DNA of 64,000 nucleotides from assembly GCF_008274215.1 (NCBI RefSeq), contig NZ_VTPS01000001.1, positions 236,029 to 300,028 on the forward strand. The letters are read 5' to 3'. Positions 43,379 to 52,514 of this stretch are shown piece after piece. The position numbers were made by a program, and so were the translations under genes. Numbering within the stretch: position 1 is the first letter of the stretch; each line of letters opens with the position of its first letter. The DNA comes from Calorimonas adulescens (GTDB taxonomy: Bacteria; Bacillota; Thermoanaerobacteria; Thermoanaerobacterales; UBA4877). Under the pieces are notes generated by a model, which saw only the letters and a list, made by a program, of their open reading frames with translations, was not told the DNA's origin and searched no databases.

Positions 43379-43420
43379 TAAAAAGAGACCCTGGAAATCA
43401 CTTCCGAGGTCTCTTTTTAT
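43379..43420. terminator. Bidirectional terminator between ndh and ANTAR gene
   Basis: AAAAGAGACC ... GGTCTCTTTTT with an inner TGGAA/TTCC stem; it overlaps the last codons of the ANTAR regulator gene. Confidence 0.8.
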
Positions 43421-43976
43421 ATTTTTCTATAATATCTATCGCTACCTTTTCTATGGTCACAGAATAGTTCATAGCCATCTTCTGTATGTATCTGTGTGCC
43501 TCTTGCTCTGTATAGTGTTCATATTCCATCAAATAAGCTTTAGCCCTGCTCAACTGTTTTTGTAATTCCAGCCTTTTATCCAGTTCCTCCGCCTTATCCT
43601 TCAAAGCTTTAAGCTCCCGTTTATATTTTAAAATAGAGTTTAATGTGCCAAGGACAGTAAACGGTGATACAGGTTTTACAAGATACACTATATCATCAGA
43701 ATGTATGCCTGTTGTCTTATAAGTACTTGCAGTTATCATGGTGATGACAGGAGAAATACCCTCTCCCACCAGCATGTCAGATACTATTACACCGTGTATT
43801 CCAGAGAGAACCTCATCAAGGATAGCCGCTTCTGGCCGGATTGATTTCGAAAGCCTCAGGGCTGTTGCACCATCACTGGCAGTGTATACCAAATATCCTG
43901 ATGACTTTAAAATGTCCTTCAACTGCTCTTTCATGTTATTATCAGAGATTGCCAGAACTATCTTCTCCTGTCCCAT
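43398..43976 (-). CDS. ANTAR-domain response regulator (RNA antiterminator)
   Basis: 192 aa. Receiver domain (VLAISDNNMKEQLKDILKS; AAILDEVLSGIHG with the phospho-acceptor Asp; MITAST; YLVKPVSP), a coiled coil, then a C-terminal ANTAR domain (SRAKAYLMEYEHYTEQEAHRYI, VTIEKVAIDII). ANTAR proteins such as NasR and EutV bind leader hairpins with A1/G4 hexaloops and prevent terminator formation. It lies 21 nt after glnA, and the glnA and glnN leaders here carry AAGGGY hexaloops. No kinase gene is adjacent. Confidence 0.93.
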   Translation of the reverse strand: MGQEKIVLAISDNNMKEQLKDILKSSGYLVYTASDGATALRLSKSIRPEAAILDEVLSGIHGVIVSDMLVGEGISPVITMITASTYKTTGIHSDDIVYLVKPVSPFTVLGTLNSILKYKRELKALKDKAEELDKRLELQKQLSRAKAYLMEYEHYTEQEAHRYIQKMAMNYSVTIEKVAIDIIEKYKKRPRK

Positions 43977-43997: not shown

Positions 43998-45332
43998 TTA
44001 ATACTTCGTGAGGTATCTTTCAAGCTCCCATGGTGTTACGTAAGCACTGTATTCGTCCCATTCGTCCAGCTTTGCCGTTATAAACCTCTCAACAGTATGC
44101 GGACTTAAGGCTTTTTTTATAACATCGTCAGAATTAAGCTCTTTTATTGCCTCTTCCAGAGACACTGGCAATCTGTCTATATTGGAACCTAACAATTCTT
44201 CTGATGTCATGTGGTATATGTTTCTATTTATTGACTCTGGCGGATCTATTTTATTGATTATACCGTCTAATCCAGCCTCCAGTACCACAGCCAGTGCCAG
44301 ATATGGGTTACACGATGGATCAGGGTTTCTAAGTTCAAGCCTTGTGGAAGAACCTCTCTTTGCGGGTACTCTGATCAATGGACTTCTGTTTCTCGATGAC
44401 CACGCTATATACACCGGGGCCTCAAACCCCGATACCAGCCTCTTGTAAGAATTTACTGTAGGATTTGTTATAGCACATATGGCTCTGGCATGTTTCATCA
44501 ATCCACCTATAAAATAATATGCTTCTTTACTCAATTGCAGTTCCCCGTCAGGGTCATAAAATGCGTTTTTCCCACCTTTTGTAAGGGACATATTGGTATG
44601 CATACCAGATCCTGGTATTCCGTATACAGGTTTTGGCATAAATGTAGCATGAAGGCCATTTCTCTGTGCCACTATCCTTACTACCATTTTGAAGGTCATA
44701 ATATTGTCAGCCGTTACAAGTGCATCATCATACTTGAAGTCTATCTCATGCTGGCCTGGCCCAACCTCATGATGAGAAGCCTCTATCTCAAACCCCATCT
44801 GTTTTAATGTCTTTACCATATCCTGCCTTGCCGTTTCACCCAGGTCTACAGGGGCAAGATCAAAATAGCTGGCGTTGTCGTGGGTGACTGTAGTGGCTTC
44901 ACCTTTCTCATTGGTCAGAAACAGATAAAATTCACATTCAGGTCCCACATTAAATCCATATCCCAATTCCTCTGCATGCTTCAATGCTCTTTTCAGGATA
45001 TACCTGGGATCTCCTTCAAATGGTGTGCCATCAGGGTTATATATATCACATATGAGCCTGGCCTCGAGGCTCTCTCCAGACCATGGATAGATTGTAAAGC
45101 TGGATGGATCCGGCCTTAAATACATATCTGATTCCTCTATCCTCACAAACCCATCAATTGACGAGCCGTCAAACATTTTCTCATCATTTAATGCCTTTTC
45201 TAACTCTTCTCTCGTTATAGACACATTCTTCATAACTCCAAAAATGTCGGTAAACTGCAAGTGTATGAACTCCACACCAAGTTCTTCTGCTTTCTTGAGT
45301 ACATCCTCTTTCGATAACTTTGGCCTTGTCAT
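43998..45332 (-). CDS. glnA: Glutamine synthetase type I
   Basis: 444 aa from the second in-frame ATG, which has AGGGGG 8 nt upstream; an ATG two codons earlier is too close. MTRPKLSKEDVLKKAEELGVEF, DGSSIDGFVRIEESDM, GPECEFYLF, EVGPGQHEIDFKY, NMSLTKGGKNAFYD and RNPDPSCNPYLALAVVLEAG are GSI motifs. Length is of the GSI-alpha type, without the adenylylation loop region of enteric enzymes. It joins ammonia and glutamate. Preceded by a leader with an attenuator-like structure. Confidence 0.96.
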   Translation of the reverse strand: MTRPKLSKEDVLKKAEELGVEFIHLQFTDIFGVMKNVSITREELEKALNDEKMFDGSSIDGFVRIEESDMYLRPDPSSFTIYPWSGESLEARLICDIYNPDGTPFEGDPRYILKRALKHAEELGYGFNVGPECEFYLFLTNEKGEATTVTHDNASYFDLAPVDLGETARQDMVKTLKQMGFEIEASHHEVGPGQHEIDFKYDDALVTADNIMTFKMVVRIVAQRNGLHATFMPKPVYGIPGSGMHTNMSLTKGGKNAFYDPDGELQLSKEAYYFIGGLMKHARAICAITNPTVNSYKRLVSGFEAPVYIAWSSRNRSPLIRVPAKRGSSTRLELRNPDPSCNPYLALAVVLEAGLDGIINKIDPPESINRNIYHMTSEELLGSNIDRLPVSLEEAIKELNSDDVIKKALSPHTVERFITAKLDEWDEYSAYVTPWELERYLTKY

Positions 45333-45361
45333 ACACATTACCCCCTAATATAATAAAATAA

Positions 45362-45406
45362 GGTGCCCTTTGAGTCAGTACCATCCTGACTAGGACACCC
45401 TTGCCC
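45362..45406 (-). ncRNA. glnA leader switch: terminator with competing AAGGGT hexaloop hairpin
   Basis: On the minus strand, GGTGTCC and GGGCACC form a terminator stem followed by TTATTTTATT, with AGTCAG/CTGACT nested inside (loop GATGGTA). Overlapping the terminator's 5' arm is an alternative hairpin GGGC-[AAGGGT]-GTCC whose hexaloop has A at 1 and G at 4, the known ANTAR recognition rule. The two folds exclude each other. The ANTAR gene lies directly downstream of glnA. Confidence 0.65.
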
Positions 45407-45420
45407 AAAACCATGAATAT

Positions 45421-45450
45421 ATATTAGCACAGTAAAGGCATGTATGTCAA
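45421..45450 (-). promoter_or_regulatory. glnA promoter
   Basis: On the minus strand TTGACA, 18-bp spacer, TAATAT, placed so that transcription begins about 10 bases before the leader switch. Confidence 0.7.
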
Positions 45451-50137: not shown

Positions 50138-50261
50138 CCACCCCTTTTAACAACCAAAATAAAAACAGTATGCAGTTTAATTATATCTTATATATTATCT
50201 ATGTAACAATGGGAAAAATATCATAGCTATGTCAAGCACAGACCTACCTGTAAAAAACCTC

Positions 50262-50290
50262 TTGCCTTTTCTAAAGAAAAATGATATCAT
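50262..50290 (+). promoter_or_regulatory. Probable glnN promoter
   Basis: TTGCCT, 17-bp spacer, TATCAT, with start expected about 20 bases before the leader switch. Only moderately close to consensus. Confidence 0.5.
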
Positions 50291-50319
50291 ATTGAAATAA
50301 CAAAATAAGTAGCTGTGGA

Positions 50320-50370
50320 ATGAAACAAGGGCGTTTCATGAAATGATGAAACTGTCCTTGTTTTTATTTG
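50320..50370 (+). ncRNA. glnN leader switch: 17-bp terminator versus AAGGGC hexaloop hairpin
   Basis: The segment GTTTCAT is flanked by two copies of ATGAAAC. Pairing with the upstream copy gives ATGAAAC-[AAGGGC]-GTTTCAT, a perfect 7-bp stem with an A1/G4 hexaloop as ANTAR proteins require. Pairing with the downstream copy joins AAACAAGGGC/GTCCTTGTTT into a long terminator with TTATTT after it. The two are mutually exclusive. The loop is nearly that of the glnA leader (AAGGGT). Confidence 0.72.
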
Positions 50371-50414
50371 TATTTATTCATTCATAAATTAAGTTTAAAA
50401 GGAGAGATTATGTT

Positions 50415-52514
50415 ATGTCTCAAAATTCATTAAGTGAAATCTTTGGATCCAATGTATTTAATGATTCTGTAATGAGGGAACGGCTCCCAAAAGCAACGTA
50501 TAAGGCTTTAAGGAAAACCATCGATGAAGGCCTCCCGCTCGACCCCCAGGTGGCAGAAGTGGTGGCCAACGCTATGAAAGACTGGGCCATAGAAAAAGGT
50601 GCTACACATTTTACCCACTGGTTTCAACCTCTTACAGGCATTACTGCAGAAAAGCATGACTCTTTTATCTCCCCAACTCCTGAGGGACGCGTCATTATGG
50701 AATTTTCTGGTAAAGAGCTTATCAAGGGTGAACCTGATGCTTCTTCCTTTCCATCAGGAGGACTCAGGGCTACATTTGAAGCAAGAGGTTATACAGCATG
50801 GGACTGCACATCACCTGCCTTTGTAAAAGATGATACGCTGTATATTCCTACAGCTTTTTGTTCTTATACTGGCGAAGTTCTAGACTTAAAAACTCCTTTA
50901 TTAAGATCCATGGAAGCTTTATCGAAACAGGCACTAAGAATACTGCGTTTGTTTGGCAATGGCACAGCTAAAAAAGTGATCACCACAGTAGGGCCTGAGC
51001 AGGAATATTTCCTTATAGACAAGAAAATGTACGACAAAAGAAAGGATCTTATATTAACAGGTAGAACTCTTTTCGGTGCAAAATCACCTAAGGGTCAAGA
51101 AATGGAAGATCACTATCTTGCCTCAATCAAAGAAAGAATATCTGCTTATATGAAAGAACTTGATGAAGAATTGTGGAAAGTGGGTGTTTCTGCCAAAACA
51201 AAGCACAACGAAGTAGCACCATCTCAGCACGAACTGGCGCCTGTATTCACCACCACAAATATAGCCACAGATCATAATCAATTGACAATGGAACTAATGA
51301 AAAAAGTTGCCTTAAGACACGGTCTTGTATGCCTCCTTCATGAAAAGCCTTTTGCTGGAGTCAACGGTTCAGGCAAACATATAAACTGGTCTATGAGCAC
51401 AGATGACGGTCAAAACCTGTTGGATCCAGGCCATACACCTCATGAAAATGCACAATTCTTAGTATTTCTGTGTGCAGTAATAAAGGCTATAGACGAGTAC
51501 GCTGATCTGTTGAGGGTTGCAGCGGCAACACCTGGAAATGATCATAGACTGGGTGCAAACGAAGCTCCTCCGGCTATTATATCAATATTCTTAGGTGAAC
51601 AGTTGACAGACATTTTACAACAGATTGAAAACGGTGGAGCCACTACATCCAAACAGGGTGGAGTATTAAAGGTAGGTGTTTCTACTTTACCGGAATTGCC
51701 CAAAGATTCCACTGATAGAAATAGGACCTCACCTTTTGCGTTTACAGGCAATAAATTTGAGTTCAGGATGATAGGATCTTCATCGACTATAGCCACTGCC
51801 AATTATATACTAAACACCATAGTAGCAGAAGAGTTATCACAAATTGCTGATAGGTTAGAAAAAGCTTCTAATTTCAATGAAGAGGTTCAGAAAATTTTAG
51901 AGGAAATTGTAAAAAATCACAAAAGGGTAATTTTTAATGGAAATGGATATTCAGAAGAATGGGTCAAAGAGGCAGAAAGAAGGGGGCTCCCCAACATTCG
52001 TTCTACTGTGGAGGCAATACCAGCTTTGATTGCAGAAAAAAATGTAAAACTTATGGAAAAACATGGGGTATTGAGTAGGGTTGAAATGGAATCACGATAT
52101 GAAGTAATGTTGGAGAACTATTCAAAAACTATAAACATTGAAGCTTTGACAATGTTGGATATCGCAAAGCGCCAGCTATTGCCCGCAGTCATAAAATTTC
52201 TTACAAAACTGGCTGATTCCATCAACTCCATTAAAGCCACCGGTGTAAACGCAGATGTTACTGCCCAAAGCGACCTGCTTGTAGAGGTCTCATCTTTAGC
52301 AGCCATGTTTAAAAAGAACATCGATGGGTTAGAAAAAGTCGTTAACGATGCTTCTGAACTAGAGGGCGATTCATATAAATTGGCTTCATATTACAGAGAT
52401 GTAGTTTTTGTAAAAATGGGTGAAGTAAGAGACATAGCCGATAAACTGGAGACCCTTGTAGATAAAGAATTATGGCCACTACCTTCTTACTCTGATATGC
52501 TATTCAACGTATAA
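50415..52514 (+). CDS. glnN: Glutamine synthetase type III
   Basis: 699 aa. [82 protein letters not shown] and [15 protein letters not shown] are GSIII blocks. Hexameric or dodecameric large form, different in size and sequence from GlnA here. Having both suggests separate control or conditions; both have similar leaders. ATG after AAAGGAGAG. Confidence 0.96.

Follow-up and report, generated by a model that had tools for sequence, protein, structure and literature searches.

A lone ANTAR-type hexaloop hairpin overlapping the terminator of the glnN leader in Calorimonas adulescens and its relatives: a candidate single-hexaloop antiterminator

Published targets of ANTAR antiterminators are pairs of A1/G4 hexaloop hairpins, P1 and P2, with short linkers, both being called essential (PMC3369931, PMC3369936, PMC8164766). 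Antitermination by EutV requires both hairpins and a tight spacing (PMC3369931, PMC8934654), and a longer P1-P2 linker abolishes it (PMC8934654). EutV touches one hexaloop at a time, P1 or P2 alone being bound about as well as both, and the authors of the EutV-RNA structure redefined the minimal ANTAR target as one hexaloop and urged further bioinformatic and experimental work (PMC8934654). For NasR, binding weakens about 12-fold when P2 stands alone, from 1 uM with both hairpins to about 12 uM (PMC7496416). Does every leader under ANTAR control need two hairpins to sustain transcription? The leader of glnN in Calorimonas adulescens, which lies in the 64,000-nucleotide stretch of DNA analysed here (the window), bears on this question, and the features of its region are as follows.

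50262..50290, plus strand: possible glnN promoter, TTGCCT-17-TATCAT with TG before the -10 (consensus match only)
50320..50339, plus strand: predicted glnN antiterminator hairpin of P2 type, ATGAAAC [AAGGGC] GTTTCAT (folding and covariance model R1, see below)
50326..50365, plus strand: glnN intrinsic terminator, stem of 50326-50339 with 50346-50360, then a T-tract (folding)
50415..52514, plus strand: glnN, type III glutamine synthetase (PF12437, PF18318, PF00120)

The original prediction read this leader as a three-segment switch, in which GTTTCAT (50333-50339) pairs either with ATGAAAC upstream (50320-50326), displaying the loop AAGGGC (50327-50332), or with a second ATGAAAC downstream (50346-50352) within a 17-bp terminator, and every one of these coordinates checks. 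The hexaloop has A at position 1 and G at position 4 and sits on a 7-bp stem; the terminator buries this loop together with the 3' arm of the hairpin, and the two folds are mutually exclusive. The terminator is real and is followed by a T-tract (GTCCTTG at 50354-50360, TTTTT from 50361), but its stem proper has 14 bp with one bulged U and reaches 18 bp only if GAAA pairs with the U-tract, so that the proposed length was slightly generous. It escaped a simple terminator scan, probably because of the bulge. When cut out as 27 nt (50316-50342), the sequence folds solely as the hairpin (-6.3 kcal/mol, z -3.45), which is also the sole structure in the AT-rich segment 50280-50345, where the same energy is no better than that of shuffles (z -0.06). 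The terminator (50326-50366) reaches -17.3 kcal/mol (z -6.1 against shuffles) and the segment 50320-50370 folds at -22.0 kcal/mol (z -7.7). As the terminator is far stabler than the hairpin, read-through should need help. A hairpin with an overlapping terminator, referred to below as the module, arises in 0.15% of 2000 shuffles of 50138-50414. The sigma-70-like promoter match would place the start near 50297, upstream of the hairpin; such matches in the leader region are not above chance (3 found, 2.6 expected in shuffles). Rfam gave no matches in the whole window at the gathering threshold; with the E-value limit relaxed to 10, the leader drew nothing but weak and unrelated ones.

Conservation was assessed in the best 80 type III loci among the matches listed, taken from named records, where the 350 nt upstream were searched for C[A..G..]G hairpins that have a stem of 4 bp or more and overlap a terminator. 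The module is present in 38 of these 80 other leaders, compared with 0.44% in shuffles. A second test avoids circularity because it requires no stem: A[AG]NGGY hexamers were chosen solely by their position in a terminator arm, in a set of 103 leaders made up of these 80 and 23 more from relatives. For 56 of 78 such hexamers the flanking bases form a stem of 4 bp or more around the loop; with displaced arms as controls the rate is 3.7%. Covariation was evaluated in 62 hairpins from type I and type III leaders (15 rows being type I), whose preselection for a 4-bp stem and a C-G closing pair makes the test lean towards pairing: paired cells amount to 94.2% (72.6% shuffled), double changes to 105 (28 shuffled) and covariation to 0.777 (0.327 shuffled, 0.251 at the best slide), and these three measures exceed 500 of 500 shuffles as well as every slide. 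The count of further pair types, another of the five measures, does not stand out, being reached by 349 of 500 shuffles. In the loop, A2 occurs in 61 of 62 hairpins, G5 in 59 and Y6 in 60, but the 15 type I rows had been filtered for all three, and the type III rows partly for G5 and Y6; the invariance of A1, G4 and the C-G closing pair is a condition of the scan. Thus the stem and loop are conserved and covary in the leaders of relatives, which the original prediction had named as its own test, and its reading of AAGGGC as an A1/G4 ANTAR-type hexaloop is supported by comparison. As for the three-segment switch, comparison supports the exclusive folds, but the downstream ATGAAAC repeat is not conserved; what recurs is the hexaloop and the 3' arm of the hairpin buried in a terminator.

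Some individual leaders deserve mention. The glnN leader of genome G039 (L022) fails the strict scan, yet a GGAGC[AATGAC]GCTCT hairpin is visible in it. The motif calls in L155 and L119 resemble chance matches; the counts retain L155, and L119 fails the narrower terminator rule. Six type III leaders (L131, L174, L177, L184, L191, L195) each received two module calls, with two clear hexaloop hairpins in tandem, each with a terminator, in L184 and L191, and a less certain second call in the other four. In L151, L154 and L163, 60-67 nt separate the hairpin from the matched glutamine synthetase start and little T-tract follows the hairpin, and control of translation instead of termination is possible there.

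The window also holds a candidate regulator and a sister module, on the opposite strand.

43398..43976, minus strand: nitR-like gene for an ANTAR response regulator, receiver plus ANTAR domain (domain search)
43998..45338, minus strand: glnA, type I glutamine synthetase, directly upstream of nitR
45360..45401, minus strand: glnA leader terminator overlapping the hairpin, with the A/T-rich tail ATTTTATT (-23.4 kcal/mol, z -4.4)
45393..45406, minus strand: predicted glnA antiterminator hairpin GGGC [AAGGGT] GTCC (R1, 21.5 bits)
45421..45450, minus strand: predicted glnA promoter TTGACA-18-TAATAT, its -10 ending 14 nt before the hairpin

The ANTAR gene that had been noted about 6.4 kb from the glnN leader is real (PF03861, 49 bits), and it is the one ANTAR gene found by domain search of the whole genome (98.7% complete). 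Its product has a receiver followed by an ANTAR domain, as in the NitR type, and the gene adjoins glnA, starting 21 bases behind it; the name NitR is one that we take to be linked with the glnA neighbourhood. This position of nitR, the module before glnA and the breadth of the single-hairpin form go beyond the original prediction. Among 65 matches to solved structures, the best two for the window's NitR are the ANTAR proteins 1s8n and EutV (6wsh), the remainder being mostly receiver domains. In our reading of the alignment, four of the eight RNA-contact residues of EutV are kept (Glu160, Lys149, Met172, Asn173) and four are substituted (Tyr164 by His, Arg142 by Gln, Arg175 by Ser, Arg177 by Thr), so the contact with the loop may differ in detail; the class-level relatives L041-L052 have Met at position 164. 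The window's NitR scores 52 bits with the ANTAR model, compared with 58-78 bits in relatives of the order.

The covariance model R1 was built on the 62 hairpins, including both copies of the window. With 150 of 814 first-look candidates scored in the own genome, the glnN hairpin, which is itself part of the model, is the top match of both window and genome (24.8 bits), and the glnA hairpin is the third match of the genome. Three other matches in this genome (L198, L200, L201) were taken as chance, lacking an overlapping terminator or a good promoter and lying over long reading frames. The two modules found in the genome, those of glnN and glnA, are both of single-hairpin form. A1 of the glnA loop could pair with U6 and leave a tetraloop, which counts against the single-hexaloop reading. 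Two more scan matches in the window (35620, plus strand, and 60190, minus strand) are without an AANGGY loop.

Measured against the definition of an ANTAR target by Ramesh et al. (2012), the glnN leader has an A1/G4 hexaloop on a stem of at least 3 bp, the P2-type hairpin overlaps an intrinsic terminator in both glnN and glnA, and the genome carries an ANTAR gene; no P1 was found a short linker upstream, in either glnN or glnA of the window. The observation that there is no clear second hairpin is thus borne out, nothing but the one hairpin folding in 50280-50345. It could nevertheless be argued that the leader is a canonical dual-hairpin target whose weak or non-standard P1 was missed by the scan, an explanation that we regard as unlikely. 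Canonical dual-hexaloop leaders are present among the fetched loci (L032/L090, the second module of L034, L096, L122), single and dual forms coexisting, and when AU-only 3-bp stems are allowed, P1-like hairpins appear in 8 of 69 unique leaders against 3.2 (sd 1.7) in shuffles, a small excess by which a weak P1 in a few lineages is possible. However, under the rule adopted for P1 (an upstream A1/G4 hexaloop on at least 3 bp including a GC pair, with a linker of 3-14 nt, in 77 leaders of which 69 are unique), candidates were obtained in only 2 of the 69 (L122, L183) against 1.2 in shuffles, and P1 stems of 4 bp with two GC pairs in none of the 69 glutamine synthetase leaders. That this routine can detect a P1 where there is one is seen in L032, L034 and L096, whose P1 stems of 5-7 bp it picks up, and because it spans 45 nt upstream irrespective of the transcription start, its outcome is independent of any promoter guess.

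The spacing of promoters also stands against a hidden P1. In 25 of the 38 type III leaders, 7-17 nt separate the end of a near-consensus predicted promoter from the hairpin (mean 0.22 and maximum 2 leaders in shuffles). Transcription usually starts about 7 nt after the -10, so by these predicted starts the transcript begins about 0-10 nt before the hairpin and P1 has no room. The spacing is 8-10 nt in the glutamine synthetase leaders of a class-level relative family (L025-L027, L029-L031, L114), and the glnA hairpin of the window likewise leaves no room, if its start is as predicted. The glnN hairpins of the window's order lie farther from the promoter, mostly at 27-46 nt, so the argument against P1 in these leaders comes from the scan and not from lack of space.

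If one hairpin is all there is, it may still be asked what acts on it. The module and ANTAR genes go together: 79 genomes of the 80 loci were searchable (one further genome is without the module) and 60 of them carry an ANTAR gene, with both present in 36, the module only in 2, ANTAR only in 24 and neither in 17 (p = 1.6e-4, kinship ignored). The module is therefore found in 36 of 60 genomes with an ANTAR gene and in 2 of 19 without one. For genomes labelled as Firmicutes the same classes count 32, 2, 19 and 8, and the association is weaker (p = 0.017, kinship again ignored). In the window's order, taken to be Thermoanaerobacterales, where 22 of 24 genomes have an ANTAR gene, the module precedes glnN in 20 of 20 ANTAR-bearing genomes with a type III gene and in 0 of 1 without ANTAR. 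Before glnA the strict scan finds it in 18 of the 20 that were examined out of the 22 ANTAR-bearing genomes, and in 0 of 2 lacking ANTAR (p = 0.026); for the remaining two of the 20, G007 and G011, inspection by eye shows the glnA module, in which the T-tract is weaker or the stem has 3 bp. The two ANTAR-less genomes of the order belong to the same genus and their glnA hairpin is broken or absent, one of the leaders being still recognisable by eye with the loop register and the closing pair gone. Such order-level tests (p = 0.026 for glnA, and 0.048) are weak on their own because losses are few.

These data bear on a second alternative, according to which the hairpin is an antiterminator set by another protein, a metabolite or polymerase pausing, the ANTAR gene being a mere neighbour. 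The departures of the window's NitR from EutV at several contact residues would suit this explanation, as would the 24 of 60 ANTAR-bearing genomes that lack the module before type III glutamine synthetase and the two genomes that have it with no ANTAR gene. Yet the A1/G4 hexaloop, the position of nitR behind glnA, both lying under a module of this type, the co-occurrence across genomes and the damaged or missing glnA hairpin in the order's two genomes without ANTAR speak for the regulator, and we hold this alternative to be improbable too. That the leader is a plain terminator with a chance repeat and no switch is very hard to credit: AT-rich leaders do commonly hold inverted repeats and the hairpin energy in 50280-50345 does not exceed that of shuffles, but the whole module is rare in shuffles of this leader, and the 5' arm, which lies outside the terminator, pairs with the 3' arm in most of the independently chosen cases.

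R1 was also run in the genomes of the window's order, 150 of 507-1193 candidates being scored in each, and 29 new loci were obtained, of which 26 were readable by script. In other genomes of the order, ammonium transporter genes (L210, L217-L221) have a module upstream with no P1 candidate, and in L232 such a module lies between glnN and an amt gene. The top R1 matches in the ANTAR-less genomes (L225, L227) were taken as chance, lying over open frames of 332 and 341 codons, with weak 6-bp terminator calls and promoter scores of 1.5 and 6.3. Elsewhere in the order (L206, L211, L230) a near-copy of the module from the glnN leader, again with no P1 candidate, precedes a phoU gene (Pfam) and a short stretch resembling the start of a phosphate ABC ATPase; the near-copy may be a rearranged piece of leader.

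Taken as a reading of sequence, the glnN leader is quite probably a single-hexaloop ANTAR antiterminator worked by the NitR-type protein encoded behind glnA, which agrees with the single-hairpin variant first suggested for it, and one hairpin is likely enough for an ANTAR regulator to sustain transcription. Termination would be the default state of the leader. A NitR-type protein would grip the lone AAGGGC hairpin in the nascent RNA and stabilise it over the far stabler terminator, and the bound hairpin would block the overlapping terminator and let RNA polymerase reach glnN. By analogy with NitR of Clostridium saccharobutylicum, the signal may be nitrogen limitation. The glnA module would give NitR positive feedback on its own operon. 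We conjecture that a promoter-proximal hairpin may suit this task, as one loop would be needed and the whole transit time of the terminator would be available for binding. A wider proposal, which we find likely though with rather less assurance, is that ANTAR antitermination without a dual hexaloop occurs in Clostridia and some Spirochaetes, where a single AANGGY hairpin close to the promoter, at the transcript's 5' end or next to it, would be the whole antiterminator and would control a glnA-glnN-amtB nitrogen regulon.

ANTAR-target RNA itself is already known, and what appears to be new here is the lone A1/G4 hairpin overlapping a terminator. A search of openly readable articles found no description of a single-hexaloop ANTAR antiterminator overlapping a terminator. 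In addition, NitR of Clostridium saccharobutylicum has been described as an ANTAR antiterminator of glutamine synthetase and GOGAT genes under nitrogen limitation (PMC6316151, citing Stutz et al. 2007), similar antitermination has been suggested for C. thermocellum (PMC4676874), and the excerpts of PMC8632094 and PMC11477304 yielded nothing on antitermination of NitR type. Searches built on two hairpins would miss single-hairpin modules, so the ANTAR regulons of Clostridia are probably larger than listed. The glnN leader and its relatives, as natural candidates for single-hexaloop antiterminators with overlapping terminators, make the question of the second hairpin directly testable.

Among known systems, the targets of EutV, NasR and AmiR resemble the module most, with a P2-type A1/G4 hairpin overlapping a terminator, nitrogen genes and an ANTAR gene in the genome. 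They have P1 and P2, however, whereas the module of the window is without P1 and often leaves no room between promoter and hairpin, and its loop follows a tighter consensus, AANGGY closed by a C-G pair, of which the scan itself demanded A1, G4 and the closing pair. Possible single hexaloops have been pointed out in the extra hexaloop of EutX RNA and in stem-loops of M. tuberculosis that are not always dual, one A1/G4-type hexaloop being proposed as enough for ANTAR contact; these were proposed for sequestration or translation, whereas the lone hairpin of the window overlaps a terminator (PMC8934654). The NitR system of C. saccharobutylicum shares an ANTAR regulator tied to glutamine synthetase and GOGAT genes (PMC6316151). 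The RAT of LicT and SacY is likewise one protein-stabilised hairpin overlapping a terminator, but the protein domain is unrelated and the RAT is recognised through internal loops, whereas the module described here would be recognised by its terminal hexaloop (PMC3369936).
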